Positions 1,606-24,178 of a stretch of 64,000 nt of DNA are shown one piece after another. The translations under genes and the position numbers were made by a program. Source of the DNA: Acetobacter indonesiensis (GTDB taxonomy: Bacteria; Pseudomonadota; Alphaproteobacteria; Acetobacterales; Acetobacteraceae); the NCBI RefSeq assembly GCF_000963945.1, contig NZ_BAMW01000024.1:1-64000 (forward strand), read 5' to 3'. The first letter of the stretch is position 1; each line of letters opens with the position of its first letter. The notes under the pieces were generated by a model. The model was not told the origin of the DNA. It was given only the letters and a program-made list of their open reading frames with translations, and ran no database searches.

Positions 1606-1965
1606 TTTTGGTCCCTATGTAGCCGACTTCGTAATCACCGATCCGGCCAAAACTGATTGCTATTCAATATCGCGGGAAGATATCCATACAGCCGCCCGGA
1701 GACAATGTTCGGACGGTAGATAGATTCCAATTGCCAGCCGAGCGCAGTAAGATTGATGTCTGCTATGCGGAAAGCGATATTAGCAACTGTATGCCCGATA
1801 TGAGGGCGTCTGCCGCCTGTCCGCTTCACGTTTCTTGAGCGGACAGGCAGTTCAGGGGGGAGAACGGAAGGTCGGCTTTATGTTTGAAGGCAATAAAAAG
1901 CGGCCATGGAAATTGAAAAGAAATGTCTTGCTGTCGTCCGACGTACTGTTTGCTACGATGGCGCG
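1606..1965. other. gene-poor stretch with an 11-bp inverted repeat
   Basis: No convincing gene is seen between the AIPR start and the SCO-family start. It contains a perfect 11-bp inverted repeat, GCCTGTCCGCT at 1815-1825 and its complement at 1838-1848, with a 12-nt loop. There is no T-run after it, so a simple intrinsic terminator is unlikely; a transposon or recombination remnant, or a protein-binding palindrome, is equally possible. Confidence 0.4.
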
Positions 1966-2607
1966 ATGACTCGCAAGAAACCCATAAAAATTGCATTAAC
2001 CAAGCAAGTCCCTCTTTCGAGACGACAGGAGTGGAAAAAGATATTTCCTCTTCTTTGTATCATAATGTTCCTGTTTTCTGGGGCTGCGGGACTAAGACTA
2101 TTTCTGACGTCGCAGCAGCATACACAGATTGGCGGGCCTTACACTCTGGTTAATGGTCATGGGCAGACTGTCAGTCAGGCGGATTTTGAAGGGCATTATA
2201 CGCTTCTGTATTTTGGCTATACGCACTGTGTAGATATCTGCCCGTTGACACTAGCGACCGTGTCAGCCGCTCTTGATGAGCTTGGTAAGCGGGGACAAAA
2301 CATTATTCCCGTATTCATTTCAGTTGATCCCGAACGTGATACTCCTGCAGTGTTACAGGAGTATGTTGAACGTTTCTCCCCTCATATTGTCGGTCTGACT
2401 GGATCCGAAAGCCAGCTTCAGCCGGTTATGAAGGCATTTCATGTCTCAGCACGACGTCGTGCCCCCAATGGTTCAGGCTATCTCGTCGATCATAGTTCGC
2501 TCCTTTACCTCATGGACGGACAAAATCATCTGGTTGGCATGATCCCCGTTGATGCCAGTGCCCATCAGATTGCAAGCGAACTCAGACGGCTTTTACCATC
2601 CTCCTGA
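1966..2607 (+). CDS. SCO1/SenC/PrrC family copper-chaperone-like protein
   Basis: 213 aa from the ATG at 1966. An upstream in-frame ATG at 1906 exists, but the protein from 1966 starts with a basic stretch followed by a hydrophobic anchor (FPLLCIIMFLFSGAAGL), as expected for a membrane-tethered periplasmic thioredoxin-fold protein. The SCO copper site is visible: CVDIC (C-x3-C) after FGYTH, and the later histidine in LVDHSS. Family role: copper delivery to cytochrome c oxidase, or redox/metal handling in the periplasm. It converges with the PepSY gene (3-bp gap) and is probably functionally linked to the TonB/PepSY pair. Confidence 0.85.
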   Translation: MTRKKPIKIALTKQVPLSRRQEWKKIFPLLCIIMFLFSGAAGLRLFLTSQQHTQIGGPYTLVNGHGQTVSQADFEGHYTLLYFGYTHCVDICPLTLATVSAALDELGKRGQNIIPVFISVDPERDTPAVLQEYVERFSPHIVGLTGSESQLQPVMKAFHVSARRRAPNGSGYLVDHSSLLYLMDGQNHLVGMIPVDASAHQIASELRRLLPSS

Positions 2608-2609
2608 TG

Positions 2610-3974
2610 TCAGGTCGGGCCTAATCTCGCAAACATCCGGTTTGCGAGAACCAGAACAAATAATGCGACCCCCAGTTCTGGTAGAAGCAGCCCCAGAATG
2701 ACAAGGGTCGTCATACCGACAATCCCATATTTCTGAGAGGGCATGGCCGGCGGAACCCCCAAGGAGCCCACAGGTTTGCGTTTAAGCCACAACACTGTTG
2801 CTGCACTGCTCATCATCAGTAAGCCGACTGCCACTAAAAGGTTGATAGCCTGATTTATCCCTCCAAAAAGTTGGCCCTCATGCGCCGCTACACCGTAGCC
2901 AATGATCCGATCCATAAAGCCTTTCTGGGCAAACGTTTCCTGTGTCATCACATGGCCGTCGGGTGTTACCGTCACACTTTTCCGCAAAGGTCGGTTTTGT
3001 GTGTCGGAACGCACCGTCCACAGAGAGCCAGACGGTGTAATGATTACCGGAGCAGGCAGGGAAAGAGTGCTCGCAGTCTGTACAACAGTATTCAGGCTGC
3101 TTAGCAAGTCTCCTGCCGGAAAAGTGGAGACGGTTGGCATGTCCATACCGGGCATATCCATACTGTCTTTTACGGGAAGGTTATGTGGTTGTCCGACCGG
3201 GTACCCTGCTATGACCGTGGCGGCTGGAATCGCGCCAATTTCCCACTCCTTGACAGAGGTCAGGCGACCAACCGTGTTCTCGACCGATTGCAGGGCATGT
3301 CCCCAGACGAAAGACCACGGTAGACCGGACACCAGAAACAGCACCAGAAATACTGACGTCCAAACACCAGTGACCGCATGGAGGTCTCGCCAACGGGTCC
3401 GTCCCTTTGTTCCAAGACGTGGATAGACAACGCCTGCCAGTCCGCGCTGATGACGTGGCCACCACAGCAGCAGGCCTGTCACGATGAGCATAATGGTCCA
3501 TGATGCAACCATTTCCATAATGACAGAACCCACATTACCCAAAAGCAACTGGCCGTGCAGCCGAAAGACCAGCCGCTCAAATCTGCTTTCTTCCAGAACA
3601 GTTTTCAAAATGGTGTGGGTGTTCCTGTCCACATAGACCCGCACGGCCTCTCCGTCTGGTCTGCTGACCAGAATACGTGCGGCACTCTCCGAAGTCCGCG
3701 GAAGTTCATAAGCCAGGAAAGCCCCCTGCGGCACTGCTGATAAAGCAGCCTGAACGTCATGCTTGGGAGAGGGCGACTGAACTGTGGGCAGATGGTCATA
3801 TCGCCAGTCAATCCAGTCATCAATCTGGGGTTTGAAAAGATAAACCGCCCCGGTCAGAGAAAGAAAAGCCACAAAAGGCAGGCAGAACAGCCCTGCGAAG
3901 AAATGCCAGCGCCAGAGCGTGCGACGGTCTGGCCAGAGAGTGGCACTGTGTATGGTCATGGTACTATCCCTCAA
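2610..3974 (-). CDS. PepSY-associated membrane protein (PiuB-like)
   Basis: 454 aa inner-membrane protein with an N-terminal transmembrane helix (WRWHFFAGLFCLPFVAFLSLTG), a periplasmic PepSY-like region, further helices in the middle (MEMVASWTIMLIVTGLLLWWP) and three C-terminal helices. A Met-rich loop, DSMDMPGMDMP, lies near residues 265-280 and looks like a copper/metal-binding motif. Members of this family sit next to TonB receptors and are implicated in reduction or handling of imported metal complexes. Its first codons overlap the TonB receptor stop by 4 nt (ATGA at 3971-3974), so the two are translationally coupled. The true start could also be the ATG at 3959. Confidence 0.8.
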   Translation of the reverse strand: MRDSTMTIHSATLWPDRRTLWRWHFFAGLFCLPFVAFLSLTGAVYLFKPQIDDWIDWRYDHLPTVQSPSPKHDVQAALSAVPQGAFLAYELPRTSESAARILVSRPDGEAVRVYVDRNTHTILKTVLEESRFERLVFRLHGQLLLGNVGSVIMEMVASWTIMLIVTGLLLWWPRHQRGLAGVVYPRLGTKGRTRWRDLHAVTGVWTSVFLVLFLVSGLPWSFVWGHALQSVENTVGRLTSVKEWEIGAIPAATVIAGYPVGQPHNLPVKDSMDMPGMDMPTVSTFPAGDLLSSLNTVVQTASTLSLPAPVIITPSGSLWTVRSDTQNRPLRKSVTVTPDGHVMTQETFAQKGFMDRIIGYGVAAHEGQLFGGINQAINLLVAVGLLMMSSAATVLWLKRKPVGSLGVPPAMPSQKYGIVGMTTLVILGLLLPELGVALFVLVLANRMFARLGPT

Positions 3975-6301
3975 AACCTGATGCGCACGCCGCCGAAATA
4001 CGCACGGGGCGAGCCTGCGTAGATGGAACCTGTGCTGTTCATGAGTGTCGTGGCACCAGCCTGCTGACCACTGGCCTGTAGTTTATCGCTGATGTTGGTG
4101 GCACCTGCGATATAAGTCTGGTTAGCAACGTTCTGCACCTCGAAATACCAGTGCAAACGATGCGCCCAGCCGAACCGGGCGGGAGGATCATAATGCATTT
4201 CAAGATTAAGCAGCGCATACCCCGGCGCTTTCAGACGATTGGCGTTATCTAGCCAGTAAGAATCACGCCACGTAACTTCCGCATATCCGCCCAGCCCTTC
4301 CAGTAAACCGTCAGGCTGGTCGTAAAGAAAGCGGGCATTAAGAAAATTGGGAATGACCCCAGGGATATAGTGCCCATTACGGCTGAAGCTGCGTGAGAGC
4401 GTGCTGTTGGAAAGAACCTCGGTGTAATTGGTATAAACCTGATTATCGTAGGTGTAACTCAGTTTAACCCGACCGCCGGGAAGCATTTTCGGCATAGGTT
4501 TCCACTCCACACCAAGAACAACACCACGATGTTCAGACGCAGGTGCGTTGAAAGTGTAGGAGCCAACGGTGTTGACCCCGGCAGACTGGCTGACCAACTC
4601 ATTTTTATAAAACTCGTAAAAACCTGTTGCCTGAATGCTGACCGTCGAGGAGGGGTGCCAGTCGGCGCCCAGATCAATACCGACACTTGTCTGGCTTTTC
4701 AGCTGTGTATTGTTCCCGTATTCCCCTTGTTGCGTAATGAAAAGATTGGAAGAAGATGGCGTGCCATAGGCTGTGCCGACACGGGTATGCAGTGTCCAGT
4801 CTTTTGACGGCGTATAAATCAACGCGCCTTCTGGCGCGAGATTGAAATAGAAACGATTGGCTGTGATGGCTCGCTGGCTTCTGGCCATCGCGGAGTAGCC
4901 ATAGAGTGTTTCGGTTGCGCCAATATCGGAATATGTGCCGCCAAGCCCTACGACGATGTGCCAGTCAGGTGCAAAATGCCAGTCTTCCTGAAAGCGTACG
5001 CCAAGATTCCACTGGTGCCCGTAGCTTTCGGAACTCATGGCCCCCCGTGTCGCACCGCCAAGGGGCATGATGTTGTAAGTCTGCGAACCAAAATCGAGAT
5101 AATCAAAACTGACGCCAGCAAACGTTTCCAATGCTCTGCCAGCAAGTTCGGCGTGGTTGGTGATGTCGCTACTGACATTATAGGAATTATAAGGACCGAC
5201 ATACGCCGTGGGCGACGTGGGTTGATCGATATGGCGCTGATCGTAAGTAAACTGGTTTCGCCACGTTGTGTGGCTGTTGAAATCATGCTCCCAGCGCAGG
5301 CCAACCACCGTGCGTCGATCAAAGCGGCCCAATCCGGCGGCTTCAGGACTCATGGCAACCTTCGCGCCATAGCGGCCATTGACCAGCAGATTGACAGACG
5401 CGCAGCCTGCCGCCGCACTGGACGCATTGGTGCACCCTTGCTGGTAAGGATTGGCCCGATACTGGTTGAGTGACACTCTTGCTGGCAGAAAAGCATCCGT
5501 GACGTTGTTGACGAATTTCAGGATAAGACGATCCGATGACGTCAGATTGACACGCAGCCGCATATTTTCTGTCGAGGTATTATAACGGCTATTGGCAATG
5601 AAGCCGTTTCCACGCACATCGCTGCCAAAGATCATCAGATCATAGTGTCTATTGCCAAAACCGAGCGTTGCATAATTGTTGAACATCCCGAAACTGCCGA
5701 AATCGGAGCCCAGTTCCAGTCCGTGGATGTCTGTGCCCTTTCGCGTGCGGAAATTGATGGCACCATTAATGGCGTAATTACCATACAGGGTTGAGGCAGG
5801 CCCCTCGAAAACATCCACACCCTGATAGGCATGAGGATCAATCAAATCGGCCCGGGCGGTCCCATCGGGTTGGGTCATGGGGAACCCATCTTCCAGAACC
5901 TGAATATTTTTAAGTCCCCATGATTGACGATCTCCTGAGCCACGAATGGACACGTTCGTATCGCGAGGGCCATTCCCCTGAGTGAAGCTGACGCCAGGAA
6001 TGGTCACCACCATATCGGCAACACTTTGGCTAACCTGGTTCGCGAAACTATTTCTGTCGGAACTATAAGTCGTCTGGCCCGCGGGACGCGTAAGGGCAGA
6101 GGATCGACTTAATCCCGTTACAAGAATCTGTTCAGTTTTGAAGGGATTTTTTTTGGTTCTGGACGCAGGAAGAACACGGTTGCTCAAAGGTGGGCGAGGC
6201 TTCTCTGTGCCGACGGCAGCGTAGGTAGTGGTAGCCGAGAAAATGGCGGCAGCGACCATTGTCCCGTAAAACGGGAGTGAAAAATAAATAATACGAAACA
6301 T
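3971..6301 (-). CDS. TonB-dependent outer-membrane receptor
   Basis: 776 aa from the ATG at 6301, chosen because it opens directly into a signal peptide (FRIIYFSLPFYGTMVAAAIFSATTTYA). The plug domain is recognisable (VADMVVTIPGVSF, NVSIRGSGDR, GVDVFEGPASTLYG, NGAINFRTRKG), followed by a beta-barrel that ends in the typical terminal phenylalanine (GGVRIRF). It imports a metal chelate or related ligand across the outer membrane. The substrate is not readable; the copper-like motifs in the neighbouring SCO and PepSY proteins make a copper or iron chelate plausible. It is followed by the coupled PepSY gene. Confidence 0.9.
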   Translation of the reverse strand: MFRIIYFSLPFYGTMVAAAIFSATTTYAAVGTEKPRPPLSNRVLPASRTKKNPFKTEQILVTGLSRSSALTRPAGQTTYSSDRNSFANQVSQSVADMVVTIPGVSFTQGNGPRDTNVSIRGSGDRQSWGLKNIQVLEDGFPMTQPDGTARADLIDPHAYQGVDVFEGPASTLYGNYAINGAINFRTRKGTDIHGLELGSDFGSFGMFNNYATLGFGNRHYDLMIFGSDVRGNGFIANSRYNTSTENMRLRVNLTSSDRLILKFVNNVTDAFLPARVSLNQYRANPYQQGCTNASSAAAGCASVNLLVNGRYGAKVAMSPEAAGLGRFDRRTVVGLRWEHDFNSHTTWRNQFTYDQRHIDQPTSPTAYVGPYNSYNVSSDITNHAELAGRALETFAGVSFDYLDFGSQTYNIMPLGGATRGAMSSESYGHQWNLGVRFQEDWHFAPDWHIVVGLGGTYSDIGATETLYGYSAMARSQRAITANRFYFNLAPEGALIYTPSKDWTLHTRVGTAYGTPSSSNLFITQQGEYGNNTQLKSQTSVGIDLGADWHPSSTVSIQATGFYEFYKNELVSQSAGVNTVGSYTFNAPASEHRGVVLGVEWKPMPKMLPGGRVKLSYTYDNQVYTNYTEVLSNSTLSRSFSRNGHYIPGVIPNFLNARFLYDQPDGLLEGLGGYAEVTWRDSYWLDNANRLKAPGYALLNLEMHYDPPARFGWAHRLHWYFEVQNVANQTYIAGATNISDKLQASGQQAGATTLMNSTGSIYAGSPRAYFGGVRIRF

Positions 6302-6371
6302 GTGAAGGGACCTGAAGAGACAGCACAAAATGCTCACCTGCATGGCAGGTGAGCGGCTCTTTCAATTCAGA

Positions 6372-6761
6372 TCAGGCAGGAGGTCCCTGCGGGCAGAGAG
6401 AAGTCCGTTTTGGTGTTGGCGGCCCCCGGATGAATGTGAACATCCATGACTGACGAATGGCAGCAACACATAATCCCACAAAAAGACAGAAAACGATGCC
6501 TACAACGAGCAGGTCCAATGCTTCGGACAGAAGAAAGCCGTCATCATCGGGGGCAGTTGAGCGATGGTGCTGTCCGTCTGGATCAGACGAAGTGCTTAGA
6601 TCGTCGCAAAGAATGCTCAGCTTTGTAAGGGTGTTGAGGGGATCGTCGATTAGTGTCGCAGGGGAAGCAATTCCGCCAAATGTCAGGCGTGCAATCAGTG
6701 CAAGCAATACGAGAGGCCAGAAGGCCAGCAGGTAAGTTGGACTGTGAGCACGTGGAGTCAT
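6372..6761 (-). CDS. small two-helix membrane protein of the TonB/PepSY operon
   Basis: 129 aa with two hydrophobic segments (LLAFWPLVLLALIARLTF and LDLLVVGIVFCLFVGLCVAAI) separated by a polar, Asp/His-rich loop (SSDPDGQHHRSTAPDDD), and a Pro-rich C-terminus (RGPPTPKRTSLCPQGPPA). It lies just upstream of the TonB receptor on the same strand. It resembles the short DUF2946-like proteins that accompany metal-transport genes, but the resemblance is weak. Probably cotranscribed with the receptor. Confidence 0.5.
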   Translation of the reverse strand: MTPRAHSPTYLLAFWPLVLLALIARLTFGGIASPATLIDDPLNTLTKLSILCDDLSTSSDPDGQHHRSTAPDDDGFLLSEALDLLVVGIVFCLFVGLCVAAIRQSWMFTFIRGPPTPKRTSLCPQGPPA

Positions 6762-6987
6762 GTGTCACCGTTACATCAAGTTCTCTCTGTTAACCAGTCC
6801 ATACCGATCGCTTCAATCCTACCATTCAATGACGACATCTCTGATCTTTGAGCAACATTGCATGTCTGATTCCGGATAGAAGGAGCAGAAAGCTGTCAGC
6901 TGATTTTACAGTTTGAAAGATGCCCCTAACAGATTTCATCTCCACTCAAAGCCAAAAAATTCCGGATCCAAAAAACTCACAATCTAT

Positions 6988-7815
6988 TCATCGTAGTTTA
7001 CTCACGAAATATCTGAGATGATCTGCAATAAAACTGGCTACAAAATAATAGCTGTGATCGTAATCAGGACGAAGATTCAGGATAAGTTCCTGCCCTGCAT
7101 TCCGTGCGGCTTCCTGGAGCAGTTCTGGCCTGAGCTGTTCTTTCAGAAACTGGTCCGCCAGACCCTGATCTATCAGAACAGGTAGTCTTTCCTTCGCTGT
7201 CCGCACAAGTTCAAGCGGGTCATAGGCTACCCAACTGGCACGATCCGGACCCAAATAAGCACTGAATGCTTTTTCACCCCATGGTACCTGCGTTGGCGCC
7301 ACAATGGGTGAAAAGGCTGACACAGAACGATAGCGGCCAGGATTACGCAGTGCGATCATGATGGCGCCAAATCCACCCATCGAATGTCCCGCAATGCCTC
7401 GCTGCTGCGTAACCGGAAAGCTCGCCTCAATCAGCGCAGGAAGTTCCGTGACGACGTAATCATACATCCGATAATGCGCAGCCCACGGCTCCTGCGTCGC
7501 ATTGAGGTAAAATCCGGCACCCTGTCCAAGATCGTACGCATCGTCATCAGCCACACCCACGCCCCGTGGACTGGTATCCGGCGCGACAATGGCGATGCCC
7601 AGTTCTGCGGCCACGCGTTGCGCGCCAGCCTTGCCAATGAAGTTCTGCTCCGTACATGTCAGACCGGAGAGCCAGTAAAGAACGGGAACCTTTTCAGTTT
7701 TTGCCTGCGGCGGCAGGTAGATCGCGAAGTTTGCTTCCACACCCAACGACACGGACTTGTGTCGCCAGACTTCCTGCACGCCCCCAAAAGAGGCGTGTGT
7801 TTCCTTGCGTTCCAT
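6988..7815 (-). CDS. frmB: S-formylglutathione hydrolase
   Basis: 275 aa from the ATG at 7815 (a GTG at 7824 would add three residues). Esterase D / alpha-beta hydrolase with the nucleophile elbow GHSMGG around residue 147, the N-terminal [11 protein letters not shown] signature of the family, and a C-terminal DHSYYF carrying the catalytic His. It hydrolyses S-formylglutathione to formate and glutathione, the last step of glutathione-dependent formaldehyde detoxification in the cytoplasm. Last gene of the frmR-frmA-VOC-frmB operon. Confidence 0.93.
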
Positions 7816-7839
7816 GGCTCTCACTGCCTTTTGCGCATG

Positions 7840-8241
7840 TCAGTTACCGTCCGTGAAGGTATAACTGCAGATCTTGTTCCCTGCCGGATCCCGGAGATAG
7901 GCAGCGTAAGCGCCCGGTAAGTGGCTTCGCGGGCCGGGTGCGCCTTCATCGGTTCCCCCATTGGCAAGACCTGCGGCATGAAAAGCCTCCACTTCGGCGG
8001 GTGTCGCTGCTGCAAAACCGATGGTGACACCGTTGCTTGAGGGCGCTTCACCGTTGCCAGGACGTGCAATGATGAAGGCTGGCTTTTCGCGGCCATACAG
8101 AATCCACCCATGCCCGAACGGCCCCAGGTTTTTTATGCCCAGAGCCGCAAGCGCGGCGTCATAGAATTTCGCGGATACCGCAGTATCCACTGCCCCAAGA
8201 AAAACGTGAGAGAAAACATCGTCACCGGAAATAACTGCCAT
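7840..8241 (-). CDS. VOC (glyoxalase/dioxygenase) superfamily protein
   Basis: 133 aa from the ATG at 8241, which follows a clear AGGAG ribosome site; the longer frame to 8268 lacks one. Features: HVFLGAVDTAVSAKFYDAALAALGI (typical VOC opening), the central HAAGLANGGTDEGAPG loop and the AYLRDPAGNKIC ending. VOC proteins bind a divalent metal and act on small electrophiles or confer resistance. Position between frmA and frmB suggests a role with glutathione or aldehyde adducts, but the substrate is not readable. Confidence 0.85.
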   Translation of the reverse strand: MAVISGDDVFSHVFLGAVDTAVSAKFYDAALAALGIKNLGPFGHGWILYGREKPAFIIARPGNGEAPSSNGVTIGFAAATPAEVEAFHAAGLANGGTDEGAPGPRSHLPGAYAAYLRDPAGNKICSYTFTDGN

Positions 8242-8300
8242 GATCGTTCTCCTGTAATTTCCAACCATTGGAAATGATGTTGCGCGGTGAGACGTAGACC

Positions 8301-9727
<1,427 letters not shown>

Positions 9728-9745
9728 GAACGCTTACTCCCGAAT

Positions 9746-9795
9746 ATACTACCCTTGAGTATCCTCGTCATACTATAGGGCAGTATGACGAGGAT
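9746..9795. promoter_or_regulatory. two FrmR-type operators
   Basis: Two copies of ATACT-N7-AGTAT occur side by side: 9746-9762 (spacer ACCCTTG) and 9770-9786 (spacer ATAGGGC), 24 bp apart. The second is embedded in a larger inverted repeat with 14-bp perfect arms at 9761-9774 and 9782-9795. This TACT-(G/C tract)-AGTA layout is what CsoR/RcnR/FrmR-type repressors bind. The sites lie just upstream of frmR, so they probably give autoregulated, formaldehyde-inducible expression. Confidence 0.75.
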
Positions 9796-10460
9796 ATAAG
9801 GGCGTGCTTGTCATATGATCCGATCACAATTCCGTATCGCTGAAATTTTCATCGCAACGTCCATGGGTTGCCCGTCTGTGTCTTGGGATCATTCAATAGG
9901 TGCAATCAGTGAGATCCAGACAATCTCTGCAACGAGGCTTTGAAGCGCTGATGTCCGCTATTTGGCAAACAACCTTGTGGTCCAAACGACCGACATGAGG
10001 CGAAAGCAGAAGGTCCGCTTAGCGCGGCGTAAGCAGACAAGCGGCAATCGCCCTCTTTGCGGACACGTGAGCCTATGAATAGCTTTCCGCGTAGCGGACA
10101 TCAGGAAGGAAGCAGTCGGCTGGCAGCTAAGGCCTCTGGCGGTGCGGCGGATCGCGCCGTGACTGACCCGAGCCGACTCCCTTTGATGATGCTGGAGGTG
10201 CTCCGCCTTTTAGCTGGAGCCGAGAGGCCGGTTCCTTGGGAGCTGCCGCTCGTCACGGAAACCGCGTGCGGCAAGGGGCAGTGCAATGCAGACTTTCGGG
10301 CCAGATGCATGAAACACGGTTTGGACAAGAGTTGACGGAAGGTAGTCGTCCGCCGCATGTACGAAAGTTCCATAGGCCCTCCAGAAATTACATCTTTCCT
10401 ATTCGATCAGTTTCATCATAGAATTGAACAATGTATTGTCTCGAACACCTATGAACTTTG
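9796..10460. other. 665-bp stretch without a supported gene
   Basis: No gene could be supported between the frm operators and drt3a. Short open frames exist (for example 92 codons from 10057) but have no recognisable features or good ribosome sites. Text such as TCCGCTTAGCGCGGCG and CCGCGTAGCGGAC looks like decayed mobile-element or chromosomal sequence. The promoter of the DRT3 operon should lie in its last 100 bases, which are more AT-rich. Confidence 0.4.
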
Positions 10461-11693
10461 ATGTATGATCCCACATTCGGCGGCGCAGCACTCGCCCGAC
10501 AGTTGAATAAAAGTGATTTTCTAAAAGAACCGGCCTTGAAGAACGAGGCCCACAAGGCCGCTATAGTAGCACAGGCTGTGGCGATTGCTCGCAATGGGTT
10601 TGCTTACTTGCCGTTGACCCCAAATAGCTTAGCAGGGCGAACGGTCTTCCAGGTCACCGATCTGGCAAGCGATCTGGTATTACGAAAGGCGGCTCAAAAT
10701 ATTCGTCGAATCACGGCGTCAAAGCAGGGAAGCCGGATCGAGATCATTCGTCGTCTAAAATTGTTCTGTGAAGAAGGCATTCCTTTCACCGTTGTAAAGA
10801 TGGACATAAAAAACTTCTATCCTTCGGTTGATCAGGATTTTCTATCTATCCAACTAAACAAGAGGCTTGTGACCGCGCCCAGCACGGGATCGGTAATAAA
10901 ATCCTTAATTAATCAATGTAGAAGTAATTCCGTGGGCGGTCTGCCCCCAGGATTGGCAATAAGTGCAGAACTCAGCGAGTTCTACATGCAGGATTTTGAT
11001 TGCCATATGCGCGAAGTGCTAAAGCCACACTACTTTGCACGATACGTAGATGATATAGTTGTTATTTTGCCACATTTGGACAACCCCAAGGCACTTAAGA
11101 AATTAATTGAAGATATTTTACCTAATGGTTTGAAGTTAAACTTCTCAAAATCGAAGGCATATACTTTTGGAAATGCGAATATAAAGTCACCATCTATTGA
11201 GCATAGCTTCGATTATCTTGGCTTCAAGTTCAATGTTTATCAAGTGGGTAAAGACAGACCGTATTCGCGCCGAGTTGATCTGGATATTGCTTCATCGAAG
11301 GTAAAAAAGAACAAGACTCGAATTGTGAAGTCCCTTCTACAGTATTTATCTGACGGAAACTTTGACGACCTTAGAGATCGTATCCGTATATTGACATGTG
11401 GCTATCAGTTCTTTGATGAGCGGCAGCAAAAGAGACGAAGTGCGGGTCTACAACACACTTATAAACTCATCGAAGGCAATGCTCCGGCGCTTGTTGAGCT
11501 TGATAGGTTCCTTTCTCGGATGGTCCTTTCAAATTCTGGGCCCATTTGTGGATGGTTGGCACTCGCTATGACAAATCAAGAAAGAAAAGAATTGCTTAAG
11601 TACTCATTTTTCACTGGCTTTAATAACCGCGAACACTTCAGGTTTAGCGCCAGTCGGTTGGCACACCTAATGGGGTGTTGGAAGTATGCCTAG
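10461..11693 (+). CDS. drt3a: antiviral reverse transcriptase Drt3a (UG3-like)
   Basis: 410 aa from the ATG at 10461; a TTG three bases earlier is the only alternative because an in-frame stop lies just upstream. RT motifs in order: the N-terminal NIRRITASKQ region, motif A VKMDIKNFYPSVD (near residue 114), motif B GGLPPGLAISAELSEFYM, motif C ARYVDDIVV (YVDD near 195-198), and the LGFKF thumb entry. Family: defence-associated reverse transcriptases; the pairing with a second, larger RT that overlaps its 3' end by 8 nt matches DRT type 3 (UG3 plus UG8). The base composition is more AT-rich than the flanks, consistent with transfer. Confidence 0.85.
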   Translation: MYDPTFGGAALARQLNKSDFLKEPALKNEAHKAAIVAQAVAIARNGFAYLPLTPNSLAGRTVFQVTDLASDLVLRKAAQNIRRITASKQGSRIEIIRRLKLFCEEGIPFTVVKMDIKNFYPSVDQDFLSIQLNKRLVTAPSTGSVIKSLINQCRSNSVGGLPPGLAISAELSEFYMQDFDCHMREVLKPHYFARYVDDIVVILPHLDNPKALKKLIEDILPNGLKLNFSKSKAYTFGNANIKSPSIEHSFDYLGFKFNVYQVGKDRPYSRRVDLDIASSKVKKNKTRIVKSLLQYLSDGNFDDLRDRIRILTCGYQFFDERQQKRRSAGLQHTYKLIEGNAPALVELDRFLSRMVLSNSGPICGWLALAMTNQERKELLKYSFFTGFNNREHFRFSASRLAHLMGCWKYA

Positions 11694-13692
11694 CAAGCGC
11701 AAGTCACGAGTGAAGCTAGATAAAGCGGATAAATGGCGCGTTGTACTTACAGATACATCACCGTTGGAGGTTCCGATTATCGTTAGCAACGATGGCTTCT
11801 ACAAAAATCTTTATGGAGCAGCCAAGAAATCGGCGCATTTCAAGAAGATGATCACTGCTCTTGTGCTGGACGATGACGGTAAAGGATACACTATTCCTCT
11901 CAGGTACAATATCGTCAAGGATTCCCGTAGCGTCAGAACCTTGAGCCTCCTACACCCGAAGGGTCAGGCCATTTTGGCCGAGTTCTATCAAAAGTATGAG
12001 GAACTGATCTGCGAATATGCGGGACGTGGACCATTCTCCATTCGTGCGCCGAAGAAAGTTGGAAGTTCTTTTTTTGTGCCATCTTCGATGGAGGATAAAA
12101 ACCGCTACAAGAACGCAACTGTCGATATGACCGGGCTGGACAAATTGGTCCGAAACCCGGCCAGCTACTTTTCATATTCAGGGTATGATCACCTATACAA
12201 ATTTTTTTCTTCAAATGACCACATTCGCCTAGAGAAAAAGTATCGTTATCAACTGTCTCTAGATATAAGCAAATGCTTTGACAGCATTTACACGCACTCA
12301 ATGGCATGGGCAACTAAGAGTAAAGATGAGGCGAAAGAGAATACATTCGCCTCAAGCTTCGGAAATAATTTCGACAAGGTAATGCAGCGACTCAATCACA
12401 ACGAAACTAGTGGTATTTGCATAGGGCCGGAAGCTAGTCGCATTTTTGCTGAAATCATACTCGCCAAGGTGGATCAAAATGCACGTCGAAGTCTAGAGGA
12501 GAAAAGATTTCCCATACGTGATGGTGTCGATTACGAGTGCAGGCGCTACGTAGACAACTACTATGTTTTCACTAATGATCCTGCGACTGCCGATTTGGTG
12601 GAGCATGAACTATCAATCGCATTGCGGGAATATAATCTCCACCTGAATACTGGAAAGAGGGAATTCGAGAAGCGACCATTCTATTCAAAAAAATCACTCG
12701 TTATAGACGCGATCAACGAATCTCTCGCCAATCATTGGGAAAAACTCTTTGAGTCTGTCTTCTTGCCTGAAAGTGGCAGAAAGGCATTGTCTCCGAGACA
12801 CATATACAAATACCGTTCGTTGTTTGGAAAACTCACCAGAGAGGTTAAGGCAGCATGCTTTGCCTCCGAACTCGGTTATGACGCAGTTGCAAACTATATA
12901 ATCGGTGCCGTGCGCAGGAAAGCTATCGATATCGCAGAGGGATATGTTGGTCTTTCGGCTTTAAAAGATAGGCCTGTTTCCGATCTAAATTATCGACAGA
13001 TGTTCTTTTTCTTGCTTGATGTTGGATTTTACTTTTTTACACTTCATCCAACGGTAGCGTCGTCGCTTCGCCTATCTCACACTATTGTGTGCGCTGCGCA
13101 GCATCTGCAAGAATACGATCCCGAAGGTTTTGATATTCTCAAAGAGGCCTCCCTTCGTTGGGCATCACAATTAGCTCGAGCGCCTAGCTTCGAAGGTTTA
13201 CTCTCGAAAGAGTCAGTAATCCCAATAGAATTGCTCAATATTTTGATTAGTCTCCAACAGTTTGGGGCAGATGGGCAACTAGAGCATGATTTGATTTCAC
13301 TCGCTAAACTGGACCGAAGGAGTGTGGGCTACTTCGAACTGGTCGTGAAGCTATTCATCTATGGTGACCGACCACAGTTCTCTGACCAGAGGGACGAAAT
13401 CTGGGAAATTATCTGCCAGCGAGTTTCTTCAGAGAAGTCTCTGAATAGGTCTTCGGAGATAGTGCATCTTTTATTGGATGCGCTTGCTTGTCCGTATCTT
13501 GATAGAGTGAAACGAGCCGAATTGCTTCATGCTTCATGGAGTAGGATGGGCTCCAACCTCGGCAATTTAAGTGCAACGGAGGCCAAGACACTGGTTGACG
13601 AAATCCAACAGCAGCATTGGTTTGTTCGCTGGGATGGCGTCGACCTTTTGAATATGATCGAAAAGAAAGAGTTGAGCAGCGTTTACGCCTAA
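11686..13692 (+). CDS. drt3b: antiviral reverse transcriptase Drt3b (UG8-like)
   Basis: 668 aa. RT-like core: motif A LSLDISKCFDSIYTHS (near residue 190), motif B GICIGPEASRIFAEIIL, motif C CRRYVDNYYVF (near 286-291). The second Asp of the usual YxDD box is Asn here. After the palm comes a long helical C-terminal region of about 330 residues with no other recognised domain, as in Abi/UG RTs. It overlaps drt3a by 8 nt, so expression is coupled. In DRT3 the two RTs act together with a noncoding RNA against phage; a matching RNA candidate follows the stop codon. Confidence 0.82.
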   Translation: MPSKRKSRVKLDKADKWRVVLTDTSPLEVPIIVSNDGFYKNLYGAAKKSAHFKKMITALVLDDDGKGYTIPLRYNIVKDSRSVRTLSLLHPKGQAILAEFYQKYEELICEYAGRGPFSIRAPKKVGSSFFVPSSMEDKNRYKNATVDMTGLDKLVRNPASYFSYSGYDHLYKFFSSNDHIRLEKKYRYQLSLDISKCFDSIYTHSMAWATKSKDEAKENTFASSFGNNFDKVMQRLNHNETSGICIGPEASRIFAEIILAKVDQNARRSLEEKRFPIRDGVDYECRRYVDNYYVFTNDPATADLVEHELSIALREYNLHLNTGKREFEKRPFYSKKSLVIDAINESLANHWEKLFESVFLPESGRKALSPRHIYKYRSLFGKLTREVKAACFASELGYDAVANYIIGAVRRKAIDIAEGYVGLSALKDRPVSDLNYRQMFFFLLDVGFYFFTLHPTVASSLRLSHTIVCAAQHLQEYDPEGFDILKEASLRWASQLARAPSFEGLLSKESVIPIELLNILISLQQFGADGQLEHDLISLAKLDRRSVGYFELVVKLFIYGDRPQFSDQRDEIWEIICQRVSSEKSLNRSSEIVHLLLDALACPYLDRVKRAELLHASWSRMGSNLGNLSATEAKTLVDEIQQQHWFVRWDGVDLLNMIEKKELSSVYA

Positions 13693-13708
13693 GATATCAT
13701 AAGTGCGG

Positions 13709-13835
13709 GTGTCAGCCACGTTTTGCCGTAACTCGATTGCGGTACAGACATTCCGTTCAAACTGCGTGGACCGTATACAATCTGCGTAAGAGTTCGGTTT
13801 GAGCAGCAATGCACACACTTACGTTGGCTGGCATT
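13709..13835 (+). ncRNA. candidate DRT3 noncoding RNA with exposed ACACAC
   Basis: Begins 17 nt after the drt3b stop. Three nested stems can be drawn by eye. The closing stem pairs 13711-13721 with 13821-13832 (one bulged base, one G-U). The middle stem pairs ATTGC 13736-13740 with 13806-13810. The upper 10-bp stem pairs 13755-13764 with 13795-13804 (two G-U). The single-stranded segment between middle and closing stems on the 3' side holds ACACAC at 13813-13818. An alternative hairpin can pair CGTAAG 13785-13790 with 13818-13823. DRT3 systems need an ncRNA, and I recall an AC-repeat template for Drt3a. The exact ends are guesses. Confidence 0.55.
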
Positions 13836-14147
13836 CAAAAAGCCCTATTTTGTCGCCAACGCCCACAATCGTTCGTTACGCTGTAGTATCTGGAAGCTCA
13901 CCCGAGAACTCCGCAAGGGGCTGGTTGTGTCGATCAGCCGCGACGTGAACGCCTTTGATCCACTGTTCGCTTCCTGCGCAAAGCGGTCGTCATACGCAGT
14001 TGAATGAAAGGCAGGAAACATCGCCTGGGAACTCCAAAGCGGTCAGACCGCCTTCCCCCCCTTAGCGGCCTATCTATTCGGAAAATGCGAAACAGGCACA
14101 CAGATTCCGTCAGAACCAGCCACCTCTCTATTACGCCTTCGGTAGGA
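13836..14147. other. 312-bp stretch without a supported gene
   Basis: Between the candidate RNA and the end of the HNH gene no start, ribosome site or family signature supports a gene. The text looks like decayed coding sequence, but no parent gene could be recognised. Confidence 0.35.
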
Positions 14148-15368
14148 CTATTCTGCTCCAGGTTGTTTTGACCGTCTCAATAGAAATTTTTCCTTGGTAG
14201 GAATCTGCATCAACGCGGCGACCAACTTCTGACTGATCTCGATTATGGCTGCTCTGCCCTTCTCATCCATCTCGATCATATCACCTTCATCGTAATAGTG
14301 CCCCAGGACATCATTGAGGACATTGTGGATAGTTCGTTCCCGGCTCACATCCTGATGGAGCTTGAGAACTGTTGACACGCGCGCAAGCGAGACGTCATTG
14401 AGTCTGCTGCCATCGGGTGCGTTGAGCCAGTCGAAATCGAGTGACACCTTGGCGGCCAGATCACCGTCCCAACGTGCCGGATTGAGTGGATCGGATGCGA
14501 GCCCGATCTCAATATTCCTTGGCCCACCTTTCTCAGCCAACACCATTTGCCAAGAAGCGATGTTAAATGCGTGATAATAGGCAAGAGTTCGCCCATAATC
14601 ATCGCTTCTGACATAAATGAGATTGAACATCGGCCCATGGTTTTCCAGCAAATACTGATAGGCAGATTCAGGAAAATCACGAGCATCCACAGTGGTGAAG
14701 CACTGAAGGAAGTCTTCGCTCCCCTTGACGACGAAGTCGCGGGCTTGGGCAAAAGCCGCGTCTTTTAAAGGCATCGTCCCAACACGGGTTGCCAGCAAGA
14801 CTAGGCTGGATTTTACCATCGAGCGGACGACTTCCTCACCGCCGCACTGGATCCGAGTGTGAAGTGTGCCGGGATATTCGTTCTGAAAGGAAGCGTACTG
14901 TCCCTCAATTTTGGCCCAGAAATGATCCTCGGTTACGCCTATAGCCGCTGCGGCATGAGCAACATATTTCCTAAATTCCTCCATGCTATCGACGCTGAAA
15001 CTGACATCATAGCGCTCGTTGCCCAGTGGTGTGATAGTGAATGGTTTACCCCCAACGCGCTTGGGTCTACCACGAGAATCGAGAGTGATCGTTCCGGTCG
15101 ATGCGAGGATTTTGGACAGACCGGGTGGAGGTTGACCGCTCCCGCTTTTCATCTGGAACATGTTGCGGAGCATGCGTAACTGCTCAGGCAGAACCTTGTC
15201 GATCGTCCCACCGAAGGATTGATTGCAGTGATTGCAATCAGCCCATTTGGTCGTCATTCGCCCACCTAGCGCGTCGAGCAGAATATGTTCAGGTTTAGTG
15301 CGAGTGCCCACTTCATTATCGCAGAAAATGCAAAGCACCTTGTCTTGTAATAACCTCTGCCGAATCAT
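14148..15368 (-). CDS. HNH endonuclease family protein
   Basis: 406 aa. The N-terminal 60 residues hold a zinc-HNH arrangement: CIFCDNEVGTRTKPEHILLDALGG followed by CNHCNQSFGG, that is C-x2-C, an E-H-I-L core and a second C-x2-C-N, like HNH_5-type nucleases. The remaining 340 residues match nothing I recognise and may be the recognition or sensor part. It converges with the DRT3 operon, so it has its own promoter. In this setting a defence nuclease is a reasonable reading, but no function is shown. Confidence 0.65.
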   Translation of the reverse strand: MIRQRLLQDKVLCIFCDNEVGTRTKPEHILLDALGGRMTTKWADCNHCNQSFGGTIDKVLPEQLRMLRNMFQMKSGSGQPPPGLSKILASTGTITLDSRGRPKRVGGKPFTITPLGNERYDVSFSVDSMEEFRKYVAHAAAAIGVTEDHFWAKIEGQYASFQNEYPGTLHTRIQCGGEEVVRSMVKSSLVLLATRVGTMPLKDAAFAQARDFVVKGSEDFLQCFTTVDARDFPESAYQYLLENHGPMFNLIYVRSDDYGRTLAYYHAFNIASWQMVLAEKGGPRNIEIGLASDPLNPARWDGDLAAKVSLDFDWLNAPDGSRLNDVSLARVSTVLKLHQDVSRERTIHNVLNDVLGHYYDEGDMIEMDEKGRAAIIEISQKLVAALMQIPTKEKFLLRRSKQPGAE

Positions 15369-19760: not shown

Positions 19761-20111
19761 ATGAGAAGTGACAACCTGACGACCGAGGCTAACTTTCCAG
19801 CGTCCCTTCACCCCGCGCTTAAAGCCCTTGTCGCCGAAGCCGTAGCAAATGCAGCATACTCAGAAGAACTTGCGTCCGCTTCTGAAGAAGAATTTGTCAC
19901 GGCCGCCATGGTGAAAGACGGGCTAGAAATGGTCGGTCTCAATCTTGAGATAGGCGCTACATATCAAATCTGGTCCTTGATCTCTCTCAATTCTCAGGCC
20001 GGTTGGCTCGATGGACCTCGTGATGCGGCGGATGCGCTGGTCGCGGTGCAGCGACTGTGTCAGGATATTGCTGATGGGTCTGACTATGCGGGTTTTTCGG
20101 GAAAAGGATAA
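19761..20111 (+). CDS. hypothetical protein next to the recombinase
   Basis: 116 aa from the ATG at 19761 with a strong AAGGAGG site. Soluble, Ala-rich, starting MRSDNLTTEA, the degenerate fourth copy of the shared N-terminal motif. Its stop is 7 nt before the recombinase start, so the two are very likely cotranscribed and the protein may assist or regulate recombination. No domain recognised. Confidence 0.6.
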   Translation: MRSDNLTTEANFPASLHPALKALVAEAVANAAYSEELASASEEEFVTAAMVKDGLEMVGLNLEIGATYQIWSLISLNSQAGWLDGPRDAADALVAVQRLCQDIADGSDYAGFSGKG

Positions 20112-20117
20112 CGAGCA

Positions 20118-21626
20118 ATGCTGGATGCTCTACACCTGACCGGATCCTGGCCTGTTCTACGCTCGCGTGTTCTCGAACAGGTAGACCGCCTCACTAGGCA
20201 GCGTTTGGCTCAATCTGTCATTACGATCGACGTTCTCCGTCCCATTCTCTCGACAGCCCGCTTCTCCCCGCCCCTTCCAGTCTTTATCGCCGGCAGCATG
20301 CTTCCAGATGGGTCTGCTCTGCCCGATACTGAATTGCCCTACTGCGCCGAACACACAGCCAGTGCGCGTAAACTTCTTGAGGGGGCGCTTTCCTCCCTCC
20401 CCAGCGGCTACCATCTCGAAGTAGCTCTTGAGATCGATCGACAACGCTTAGCGTTTGTCGCGTCGCTTGTTTCGTCGGACCAAAAAGAAAGACCATCTTT
20501 CCTTCCGAGCAAGGACAAGGTCAATTCTATCCCGACACCTGCACCTATCGGACAAGCTCCAGCTAATGTTGTCCGCTGGTTTTCGGCTTTGGCCGAAGCT
20601 GAAGTTCCCAAACATGACGGCCAACTGGAGACATCACAGGCAGCCGTAGGCACATTCGTTCATATCGGTAAGGCCGCTAACACCCGCCGGGCCTACCGCT
20701 CGGCCATCCGTGGCTGGTGTGCATTTGCTGAACGTCATGATCTCCCTGCCCTGCCTGCGCGGAGTGAAGATGTTGCAACCTATCTCGCGGACTTGGCTTT
20801 GCGCGGACGAAAGCCAGCAACTATTGAACTCTATAGGGCTGCGTTGCGCTATCTTCATCATGTGGCACATCTACCCATACCTACGACACACGCCCTCGTC
20901 TCTGAGATGCTGGCCGGAATTCATCGCTCACCAAGCAAGACGCCACAACGTCGGGTAAAAGGTTTGACTTGGGAAATGCTCTGCGAAGTCGTTGATAAGA
21001 TCCCTATGACATCGCTGGTGGATACACGTGACCGCGCCATTTTGCTTCTTGGCTATGGGGGAGCGCTTCGTCGCTCTGAACTGGCAGGGATCCAGCTCGA
21101 ACACGTCACGCTTGATGAAGACTGCATGCGTATCACCCTACCCCACTCTAAGGGGGATAAGAAGCATCAGGGTACCTCAATAGTTATACCCCGTGGGATA
21201 ACTATACATTGTCCAGTTCGTGCCTGGGAGACGTGGATACGACAGTCAAAATTGACACCACGAAGCAACACGCCAAGCGATACAAAGATAGAGAGCACAA
21301 ACGAGACGACTGCCGCTTTCCCAAGAATTTGGCTGCCTGCAAAGGCGAAAATGAATGAGACTGCTCCCGATCCTAAAATCGGTAAGGAAAGTCTTTCGGA
21401 CTTTTCGATAGCCACAATTATCAAACGTCGATGTCAGGCAGCCGGAATTGAAGGCGATTTTAGTGGGCACAGTCTACGTCGTGGTGCCATCACAACAGGC
21501 GCTCAGGACGGCATTGACCTGATCGCGCTCAAACGATTTTCCCGTCATCGCGATTACCGAGTTCTTGAAGCATATGTCGAAGAAGATCAAGCCTTAAGCA
21601 AACACCCAGGAAAGACGCGCTTTTAG
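20118..21626 (+). CDS. tyrosine recombinase / site-specific integrase
   Basis: 502 aa. After an unusual N-terminal extension of about 160 residues comes the SAM-like core-binding domain (TRRAYRSAIRGWCAFAERHDL...DVATYLADLALRG) and the catalytic domain: first Arg in GYGGALRRSELAGI, H-x-x-R in GHSLRRGAIT, His in SRHRDYRVLEAYVEE with the tyrosine nucleophile. It carries out strand exchange, here either for resolution of plasmid multimers or for integration. No att sites could be identified, though the cluster of small ORFs in front is a candidate mobile unit. Confidence 0.85.
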   Translation: MLDALHLTGSWPVLRSRVLEQVDRLTRQRLAQSVITIDVLRPILSTARFSPPLPVFIAGSMLPDGSALPDTELPYCAEHTASARKLLEGALSSLPSGYHLEVALEIDRQRLAFVASLVSSDQKERPSFLPSKDKVNSIPTPAPIGQAPANVVRWFSALAEAEVPKHDGQLETSQAAVGTFVHIGKAANTRRAYRSAIRGWCAFAERHDLPALPARSEDVATYLADLALRGRKPATIELYRAALRYLHHVAHLPIPTTHALVSEMLAGIHRSPSKTPQRRVKGLTWEMLCEVVDKIPMTSLVDTRDRAILLLGYGGALRRSELAGIQLEHVTLDEDCMRITLPHSKGDKKHQGTSIVIPRGITIHCPVRAWETWIRQSKLTPRSNTPSDTKIESTNETTAAFPRIWLPAKAKMNETAPDPKIGKESLSDFSIATIIKRRCQAAGIEGDFSGHSLRRGAITTGAQDGIDLIALKRFSRHRDYRVLEAYVEEDQALSKHPGKTRF

Positions 21627-21678
21627 ATTAATTGCACAATTATAACATTAATTTGCATTACAGGAAATTAGAGCCAAT

Positions 21679-21696
21679 CTATGCAACGTTGCATAG
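21679..21696. promoter_or_regulatory. candidate parS palindrome, copy 1
   Basis: Perfect 18-bp palindrome CTATGCAACGTTGCATAG, upstream of the iterons. Two further identical copies follow parB. A perfectly repeated long palindrome linked to parA/parB is the expected form of a ParB binding site, though binding is inferred. Confidence 0.65.
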
Positions 21697-21710
21697 AGTC
21701 GGAAGTCGAT

Positions 21711-21963
21711 TGGACTTTACTCACGGCTGATCGATATGGAAAGCGTCCAACTAAATTATCTAGGATAAAACTACACAGTGGGTTGGACTTTACTCACAAC
21801 AGAAATGGACTTTTCTCACGCGAATCTACTTAATCCACTGGACCCTACTCACACAGCAAATAATATATATCTAATAATCTTCAATTCGCTTCGTGAGTAT
21901 AGTCCAAAGGCCGTGAGTAATGTCCAACCCAAACACGGGGAAAACTGGTGTGAGTAAAGTCCA
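21711..21963. repeat. iteron array of the replication origin
   Basis: Seven copies of a 14-bp iteron with consensus TGGACTTTACTCAC. Four are in direct orientation at 21711-21724, 21784-21797, 21806-21819 and 21839-21852. Three are inverted at 21893-21906, 21913-21926 and 21950-21963. Between the two groups lies an AT-rich stretch (about 21855-21890) suited to strand opening. The array ends 39 nt before repA, so it probably serves both as oriV and as the autoregulatory operator of repA. Confidence 0.8.
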
Positions 21964-22002
21964 ACTTGACCAACGCCCCTTTGCTACGTCAGGGTTGGGC
22001 TA

Positions 22003-22926
22003 ATGGCAGATGTTCATCACCTCTTATTGCAACATGGCCTTGAAGAGGCCCGTCGATTACAAAACATCGACAAGAACTCCCGTGCTTGCGTCGATGCCGC
22101 ACACGAAGTGCTGTGTGATGAACAACAGGCTATCGGGATAGCGCACGCAGGCTTCGCAATGGCAGCTCTTCCACACAAAAAACCTAAAACTGCCGTGTGG
22201 GAGCGCGATGGTGGGCCAGTAAAATTACTTATTGAGAGCGGCCTTGATGCGAATAAAGAGCCAGTTGGTATTCCTTATGGCTCAGTAGCACGACTAATAC
22301 TGCTATATCTTCAGACACAGGCTGTAAGAAACAAGAGCAGGCAGATTGAGCTAGGCGCATCTATGAATGCCTGGCTTTCTGCAATGAATCTATCAATTGG
22401 AGGAAAAACTTACAATTTAGTGAGGGAACAGAGTCGAAGAATTAGCCGATGCCGCTTAACTTTTTTCAGAACTGATGCTGGAAACCAGTATGTCAGCAAT
22501 GGAGCATTTGTCCGAGACGCTATATTCCCACTCGATCCGACAAACTCAGAACAGCAGTCTTTGTGGTTAGAAGTAGTAACGCTAGATGAGTCTTTCTATA
22601 ATAGTCTCATTCAGCATCCACTACCTCTGCGTGAAGTGGCAATTCGCCAAATTTCAGGTAGGTCAATGGCTATAGACCTCTATATTTGGCTTGCTTATCG
22701 CCTCCACGTTCTTACAATGCCTATAAAAGTGACTTGGGCAGCCCTTAAGAGTCAATTCGGTCCAGATTATCGAGAACTTCGTTTTTTTAGACGCGATATT
22801 ATTCCTTCTCTGAATCTTGCTTTGTCTGTTTACCCTGAGGCCATTGTAACTATAGATGACCGCCAAGGGCTAACTCTGTTTCCTTCGCCTGCACCCGTTA
22901 AAGAGCGCAGCCGACGCTTGCTCTAA
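22003..22926 (+). CDS. repA: plasmid replication initiator RepA
   Basis: 307 aa, RepA_C-type initiator. Recognisable stretches: VARLILLYLQTQAVRNKSRQIELG, YNLVREQSRRISRCRLTFF and SMAIDLYIWLAYRLHVL, typical of alphaproteobacterial plasmid RepA proteins with winged-helix folds. It binds the flanking iterons and recruits the host replication machinery. It is preceded by seven iterons and followed by two more, all tied to this gene. Confidence 0.85.
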   Translation: MADVHHLLLQHGLEEARRLQNIDKNSRACVDAAHEVLCDEQQAIGIAHAGFAMAALPHKKPKTAVWERDGGPVKLLIESGLDANKEPVGIPYGSVARLILLYLQTQAVRNKSRQIELGASMNAWLSAMNLSIGGKTYNLVREQSRRISRCRLTFFRTDAGNQYVSNGAFVRDAIFPLDPTNSEQQSLWLEVVTLDESFYNSLIQHPLPLREVAIRQISGRSMAIDLYIWLAYRLHVLTMPIKVTWAALKSQFGPDYRELRFFRRDIIPSLNLALSVYPEAIVTIDDRQGLTLFPSPAPVKERSRRLL

Positions 22927-22941
22927 AAAATTTCACTCAAT

Positions 22942-23052
22942 TGGACTTTTCTCACGGTTCACTTTTGATGGACGAGAAATTTTACGCAAAAAAATAATTT
23001 CCATTTAATCCAATTGATTACTCACAAAAAAATGGTCCGTGAGTATAGTCCA
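22942..23052. repeat. two further iterons after repA
   Basis: One direct copy at 22942-22955 (TGGACTTTTCTCAC) and one inverted copy at 23039-23052. A half-degenerate match, CCAATTGATTACTCAC, lies between at about 23010-23024. They lie in the promoter region of parA, so RepA may also bind here to regulate partition genes or to couple copies. Confidence 0.7.
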
Positions 23053-23134
23053 GTACCTTCCTGTTGATGTTGAGTGTTGACAGGGGGGTGTTGATAGATC
23101 AACACTCACTGTAATTTCTGACAGGTGAGTGGTT

Positions 23135-24178
23135 ATGACGGAAAATAATGCGGGTAATACTCTAAAAAAAGTTAGGCTGAGCTTAGGTCTCTCACAGGCC
23201 GAGTTAAAAACTTTGCTGAACGAAAGACTTTCTAGAAACTATGATAGACACACAGTCTCACGCTGGGAAAACGGGCGTCAGCCTATTCCCTCTGAGGTAT
23301 CTAACGAACTAGAGCAGCTTGTCGAACGCAGACCTCAGCCATTGCAGGTAATTGTCTTTGCCAACCAAAAAGGTGGAGTTGGTAAAACAACAAGTGCATT
23401 AAACATTGCTTATGCTTTAAGTCGTCTAAACTATCGCGTATTGTTAATAGATGCTGATCCACAAGCAAGCGCAACTTCAGCTCTCGTAGGCGATGCTTTA
23501 GTTCAGCTTTATCGCAATGGTAGAACACTGGATGCGGCCTTACTAAAGGGGGCTTCATTTTCAGACGTCATACTTGATAAATCAGCAGAACTTGAAAACG
23601 GACGAATTCTACCGTTTTCTTTTATACCAAGTCATATTGATTTGGCTGAAGTAGATGTTCGCAGGGAACCTGGAACAGAAGGTCTGCTACGTGAGGCCAT
23701 TCAAGGGGTTCAGAATGATTTTGACTACATTATTATTGATAGCCCGCCCCACCTTGGCTTTCTGACCTGGATGGCATTAACAGCAGCAAATCAGGTTTTC
23801 ATTCCAGTTCGTACTGAGCCCTATGACGTGATGGGGGTAAACCTGATTTTAGACACTATTTCCAAAGTAAATCGCCGATCAAACCCACGTCTCAGAATTG
23901 GTGGAGTAATTCCGACACAATATTCGTCAAATCAATATGTTGATGTGGGAATAATTGAACACCTAATTTCGTCTCTCACAGGAAAGGCTGATGTTCTGGA
24001 GCCTGTTCCAAGTAGTACAGCTTTCAGTAATGCTGCCTGGGAAGGTAAAATATCTGTGGAGCTAACACCTCTGAACCCTGCCGTCCGTCCCTACGTGCGG
24101 CTCGCTGAAGCGATTGGCACGGGAAAGCAGCCTGTGCTTGCAACCGATGTTTTGGACCTAAATCAGACAGAGGAATAA
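23135..24178 (+). CDS. parA: ParA partition ATPase with N-terminal HTH
   Basis: 347 aa from the ATG at 23135 (a GTG at 23129 would add two residues). An XRE-like helix-turn-helix (RLSLGLSQAELKTLL...DRHTVSRWENGRQPIP, residues about 10-60) precedes the deviant Walker A FANQKGGVGKTTSAL. Walker B-like IIIDSPPHLG follows. The HTH-ParA layout is that of type Ia plasmid ParA proteins, which repress their own operon and drive plasmid segregation with ParB. It lies 4 nt upstream of parB. Confidence 0.92.
   Translation: MTENNAGNTLKKVRLSLGLSQAELKTLLNERLSRNYDRHTVSRWENGRQPIPSEVSNELEQLVERRPQPLQVIVFANQKGGVGKTTSALNIAYALSRLNYRVLLIDADPQASATSALVGDALVQLYRNGRTLDAALLKGASFSDVILDKSAELENGRILPFSFIPSHIDLAEVDVRREPGTEGLLREAIQGVQNDFDYIIIDSPPHLGFLTWMALTAANQVFIPVRTEPYDVMGVNLILDTISKVNRRSNPRLRIGGVIPTQYSSNQYVDVGIIEHLISSLTGKADVLEPVPSSTAFSNAAWEGKISVELTPLNPAVRPYVRLAEAIGTGKQPVLATDVLDLNQTEE

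Follow-up and report, generated by a model that had tools for sequence, protein, structure and literature searches.

The systems closest to the locus analysed here are of the DRT3 type, for which a mechanism has been published in E. coli. According to the text of that report (PMC13174585), the E. coli non-coding RNA is located downstream of DRT3b and carries a looped ACACAC that serves as template for poly(TG) synthesis by DRT3a; mutation of this ACACAC resulted in the loss of both the product and defence. The same text describes DRT3b as producing poly(CA) without a nucleic acid template, with priming on Y666, and states that the poly(TG)/poly(CA) duplex accumulates upon RecBCD inhibition and causes abortive infection (PMC13174585). 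The study of Deng et al. 2026 is summarised in a review (PMC13314766), and the PDB entries 9z6y and 9z6z presumably belong to that study.

The window, i.e. the whole 64-kb stretch of DNA that was analysed, contains on its + strand a DRT3 module in the order drt3a, drt3b, non-coding RNA. Both protein-coding genes encode reverse transcriptases. The gene drt3a occupies positions 10461-11693 (ATG at 10461, alternative start TTG at 10458), and its product scored 334 bits against the NCBIfam model (curated cut-off 200) and E 2.6e-134 against the PADLOC model, with an additional match to the RVT_1 domain. The product of drt3b (11686-13692) scored 603 bits (curated cut-off 350) and E 1.4e-209, respectively; its best solved relative is 9z6y (E 1.4e-116), followed by 26cz (E 5.1e-86). 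The two genes are adjacent with an overlap of 8 bases, and both frames are open. By analogy to E. coli, Drt3a would copy an RNA template while Drt3b would synthesise the poly(CA) complement independently of any nucleic acid template. The DRT3 non-coding RNA, as delimited by folding and an alignment of five sequences, extends from 13706 to 13837, its ends being estimated from conservation and the closing stem. No Rfam family reached its gathering score anywhere in the window. No clear promoter or terminator was found; a promoter-like site at 13672-13700, corresponding to a transcript start at about 13707, was discounted, as one such site was found where 0.6 are expected. In its sequence, the contig is similar to plasmids from acetic acid bacteria. 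Positions 1802-10005, including formaldehyde-detoxification genes, correspond to an Acetobacter pasteurianus plasmid at 93.9%, and positions 20092-24000 match the RepA region of Acetobacter plasmids at approximately 83%. Downstream of the RNA, the - strand carries at 14148-15368 a gene whose product has an HNH_5 nuclease domain (E 2.4e-9); no PADLOC or NCBIfam model matched this gene at E 0.001.

Four close relatives of the module (L002-L005), with Drt3b proteins 81-84% identical to that of the window, were used for comparison; a further locus, L008, is a copy of L005. When compared to window positions 9901-14500, each of the four aligned as one piece at 76% DNA identity. The match starts at 10452-10461 and stops at 13834-13840, that is, at the end of the closing stem. 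The initial annotation had named a conserved RNA upstream of drt3a as the contrary outcome; nothing upstream of drt3a is conserved in L003-L005, the three relatives that show that side. As the contig of L002 begins 10 bases before the match, the 5' border is drawn from three relatives and the 3' border from four. These borders indicate that the conserved module consists of drt3a, drt3b and the RNA and terminates with the closing stem. Between the window and its relatives, drt3b displayed a dS of 1.35-1.52, placing synonymous sites near saturation, and a dN of 0.09-0.10, a pattern of strongly purifying selection on Drt3b. Within the RNA, by contrast, a run of 24 bases surrounding the template (13799-13822) is the same in all five sequences. 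We concluded that the segment is a real, conserved RNA. The relative L002 lies on a short contig titled Verrucomicrobia, while the others are titled Rhodobacter, Loktanella and Minwuia; the odd taxon of L002 may reflect transfer or a binning error.

The fold of the window RNA by itself is modestly better than chance. Positions 13709-13835 folded with a z of -2.10 (7 of 200 shuffles as good) and positions 13706-13837 with -2.29 (10/300), and a longer stretch around the RNA gave -1.47 (15/200); the RNAs of the four relatives folded more clearly, with z between -3.3 and -4.75. Because the single-sequence fold is modest, the case is decided by comparison with the relatives. The three nested stems of the initial annotation fared differently in this comparison. 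The closing stem of about 11 bp held: positions 13707-13717 pair with 13826-13836 at a probability of 0.98-1.0, and 11 of 11 pairs are kept in five of five sequences. Taken on its own, this stem was equalled by 41 of 5000 shuffles. A first inner hairpin, formed by 13724-13731 with 13737-13744, had been missed; it is paired in 97.5% of cells across the five sequences. When the 3' partners of the closing stem and this hairpin were slid by 1-3 columns, 31-57% of cells were paired. The two other annotated stems fall in a second inner stem region (13749-13811), the register of which is uncertain. The 5-bp middle stem (CAUU/AAUG) is predicted in the window with pair probabilities of 0.47-0.69 but fails in the relatives: the four of its five pairs that were scored are all present in the window and none in any of the four relatives, where sliding the stem by one base gave two of four. 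The 10-bp upper stem is complete in the window (10/10 pairs, probability 0.32-0.79) and retains 7/10 pairs in each relative, while an overlapping alternative stem of 8 bp could form completely in the relatives (8/8) and by half in the window (4/8), which leaves the register at this place uncertain. In addition, 24 nt that are predicted to form an apical hairpin in the four relatives are absent from the window.

The same comparison bears on a proposed switch, in which the AC repeat would represent one of two states and a hairpin between 13785-13790 and 13818-13823 would hide the end of the template. In the window, the arms of this hairpin are perfectly complementary over 6 bp; five of the six pairs are retained in three relatives (5, 4, 5 and 5 of 6 in the four). 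The relative with four, L003, has a mid-arm change without compensation, and in the window each pair was predicted at a probability of 0.0003, with forcing of the hairpin costing 5.2 kcal/mol. Conservation of the arms may also have other causes, given that the 3' arm falls within the invariant stretch at 13799-13822. We regard a switch as very improbable.

The putative Drt3a template, ACACAC at 13813-13818, is conserved and has an unpaired probability of 0.93-0.99, in agreement with its earlier placement in an unpaired segment. The repeat can be read as CACACAC from 13812, but C13812 is unpaired at a probability of only 0.5. ACACAC is common in the window, which contains 15 copies on the + strand and 13 copies of GTGTGT, so that its weight rests on conservation and place. 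These were assessed in drt3b loci drawn from genomes, plasmids, viral contigs and E. coli genomes, of which 42 were kept. ACACAC was present within 250 nt downstream in 38 of the 42 loci, compared to 234 of 4200 dinucleotide shuffles (5.6%); in the remaining four, which have interrupted frames, it occurs 143-242 nt past the last homologous piece. Interrupted drt3b frames with ACACAC still downstream were observed on viral contigs at L027, L033, L035 and L039. These data also bear on a more ordinary explanation, namely a regulatory, terminator or other 3'-end structure containing an AC repeat by chance. Such an explanation would suit the position directly after the last gene and the 15 copies of ACACAC on the + strand. 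However, no terminator-like site was found, ACACAC occupies the equivalent position in each of 35 diverged systems with stems of differing sequence, and mutation of the template has been reported to matter in E. coli (PMC13174585); we consider an ordinary 3' end extremely improbable. The assignment of ACACAC as the Drt3a template, proposed in the initial annotation, is supported by the scores of both genes above their cut-offs, by the position of the RNA downstream as in E. coli and by the role published for the repeat in the text of PMC13174585. It is thus very likely that this small RNA supplies the ACACAC that is copied in a DRT3 anti-phage system, one from a branch of the family that has received little study.

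Covariation in homologous loci, which the initial annotation had called for, was found between lineages. Within the window clade, no pair was changed on both sides in the two helices scored, the closing stem and the first hairpin, and a control in which letters were shuffled gave no separation (500 of 500 shuffles as high). For this reason, the evidence for covariation comes from outside the clade. In the sister lineage, represented by a Novosphingobium plasmid (L012) and an Acetobacter plasmid (L013), 12 pairs carried changes in both partners, among them seven pairs of the closing stem and two of the first hairpin. The set L026/L028 yielded 11 such pairs, six in the closing stem; L020/L025 yielded one and L029/L056 none, and L021/L024/L034/L064 displayed two along with four broken pairs. 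Because the same few sequences served to predict the structures, the absence of broken pairs in sets of two carries little weight. An exchange test, in which the 3' strand of the closing stem was paired with its own or with exchanged 5' strands, is free of this weakness. Initially applied to 37 loci, it gave a mean of -20.8 kcal/mol for own strands and -14.8 kcal/mol for exchanged strands (permutation sd 0.61; lowest of 2000, -17.3), the own strand being strictly best among unrelated partners in 13 of 37; some ten short-form loci, for which shorter 5' segments had been used, performed poorly. With 16 long-form representatives, chosen by us as one per sub-lineage, the means were -22.7 and -14.3 kcal/mol and none of 5000 permutations was as low; the own partner was best in 8 of 16, with L014, L031 and L029 weak. 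Six short-form loci gave 31 of 5000 permutations as low and the own partner as best in three of six. The closing stem is thus supported by compensatory change between lineages. A MAFFT alignment including L012 and L013 agreed mainly at the template end, and the sister alignments and the exchange test were therefore used instead.

A covariance model of related loci, likewise envisaged in the initial annotation, recovered its own members and did not extend further. This model (R1) was built from the window clade with an RNAalifold structure including all apical stems. Its significant matches on the + strand were restricted to its five members; elsewhere, matches at the right place were weak (L064, E 0.31; L022, E 1.5; L021, E 2), and the specificity of R1 was too high for other DRT3 RNAs to be recovered. 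On the reverse strand, R1 also matched L002, L004 and L005 weakly (E 0.0089-0.089), an effect of the inverted-repeat character of the closing stem.

A tree of 35 Drt3b proteins places ten loci (L007, L009, L010, L011, L015, L018, L036, L037, L038 and L057) on one side of a branch with 100/100 support. The template follows the drt3b stop by 39-67 nt in this short-form clade (10/35) and by 101-221 nt in the other 25, among which are the window and the 26CZ-type loci of E. coli; the locus of E. coli strain Y5 is of the short form. Seven short-form RNAs fold into a closing stem, one hairpin, the template and the end of the stem, followed by a further hairpin. Of their 18 pairs, 10 show changes in both partners in one or more sequences, and 14 are broken or gapped in one or more. 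A model of these RNAs (R2) found, outside its own members, only L058, the RNA of which is the same as that of L057; none of the long-form RNAs matched with an E below 4, and R2 missed L015, L018 and L038, which were assigned to the short form by template position. In the passages of PMC13174585 and PMC13314766 that were covered, no description of a short RNA form was found. At L007 and L010 the reading frames after the RNA look alike by eye and might represent a shared partner or border gene. As a tentative generalisation, to which we give slightly less than even credence, DRT3 RNAs may share an irreducible core, made up of the closing stem and an ACACAC directly preceding its 3' strand, with a scaffold that has been rebuilt about this core; there would be a long form with hairpins enclosed by the stem (window and E. 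coli 26CZ type) and a short form in one clade (10/35), and the branch of the window would combine a trimmed long scaffold with a YVDN-type Drt3b.

The residues of Drt3b named in the text of PMC13174585 for nucleotide choice, metal binding and priming were compared in 35 distinct uninterrupted Drt3b proteins, with the E. coli numbering transferred through alignment rather than through structure. R241, D182, D278 and Y666 have invariant equivalents (35/35); that of E22 is E in 31 and D in four, and that of R71 is R in 34 of 35. By sequence alignment, E22, R241 and Y666 correspond to E28, R252 and Y667 of the window. The YVDD active site of DRT3 systems is absent from the Drt3b of the window, which has YVDN instead (residues 288-291, codons at 12547-12558 on the + strand). 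YVDN occurs in five of the 35 proteins, all in the clade of the window, and the other 30 have YVDD or YIDD. It keeps the first Asp of the motif, a metal ligand in the published structure as described in PMC13174585. Because every other DRT3 feature tested was found, YVDN is taken for variation within the family, probably a working natural variant that may alter metal binding, rate or product.

The motif also figures in the possibility that the RNA originated as a DRT3 template RNA, with the present copy decaying or changed in activity. Together with YVDN, the missing 24-nt hairpin and a fold that is less stable relative to shuffles than those of the relatives would fit such a history. Yet both frames are open, the template and the closing stem are intact, YVDN is common to all five members of the clade, and the dN and dS values given above (0.09-0.10 and 1.35-1.52) speak for strong purification of Drt3b. 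We consider decay or changed activity unlikely. Very probably, the segment represents the non-coding RNA of an anti-phage system of the DRT3 type with a mechanism as in E. coli; the identity of the genes, the conservation, the closing stem, the place of the template and the conserved gate and priming residues of Drt3b are observed at the locus itself.

Drt3b models matched 2 of 398, 5 of 385 and 1 of 9 genomes, the window's own being among the first two, and no relatives were found via Drt3a in viral contigs. The pattern AGCAGMAATGCACACACY occurred in 10 stretches of viral contigs; five had Drt3b (four already in the set) and five did not, so that the motif alone is no proof. Nine phage records matched Drt3b, none across 80% of the query. 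A megablast search of E. coli genomes with drt3b of Enterobacter was negative, while blastn with a longer locus identified 22 of 5426 E. coli genomes. On two E. coli chromosomes (L055 and L056), DRT3 follows a tyrosine recombinase gene and lies beside ogr/Delta-like and phage polarity suppression genes, a setting that we take to resemble a P4-like satellite.

If transcription, chemistry and defence outcome are carried over from E. coli DRT3, the closing stem would join the ends of the RNA, the hairpins would fill the interior, and ACACAC would be held single-stranded just ahead of the closing stem's 3' strand. Drt3a would copy ACACAC repeatedly into poly(TG) DNA, with resetting by microhomology as proposed for E. 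coli. Drt3b would produce the complementary poly(CA), with its C-terminal tyrosine as primer and residues of the enzyme itself as guide. Annealing of both strands would result in double-stranded repeat DNA and, ultimately, abortive infection. The window extends the DRT3 template RNA to a branch whose sequences are remote from those of both structurally solved systems. The fixed parts are the ACACAC template and the Drt3b residues dictating the complementary repeat, and their joint conservation is a prediction of the published two-polymerase mechanism. The lost hairpin, YVDN and the short-RNA clade provide natural variants for probing the requirement for individual parts of the scaffold and the active site.

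Compared to EcoDRT3 (Wang et al. 2026 preprint, PMC13174585; Drt3b 26CZ), as described in its text, the window has the same two RT genes with the RNA after drt3b, the looped ACACAC and the same gate, metal and priming residues of Drt3b. In contrast, its Drt3b belongs to another branch (E 5.1e-86 to 26cz) and carries YVDN instead of YVDD, and the scaffold sequence and hairpins of the RNA differ. L029 and L056 appear to be of the 26CZ type, judging by their common end and motif sequences. The DRT3 of 9z6y/9z6z contains the solved Drt3b and Drt3a closest to the window by sequence. Loci of the L021/L022 type, which appear to encode the 9z6y/9z6z protein, have GAGCAGCAATGCACACAC in common with the window RNA, but their Drt3b is about one third identical and the closing stem and hairpins differ. 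DRT10 and telomerase are like DRT3 in that a short RNA template is copied repeatedly into tandem repeats (PMC13174585), and unlike it in product and partners. As DRT3 has already been described, the window RNA represents a further member, with a corrected structure and natural variants.
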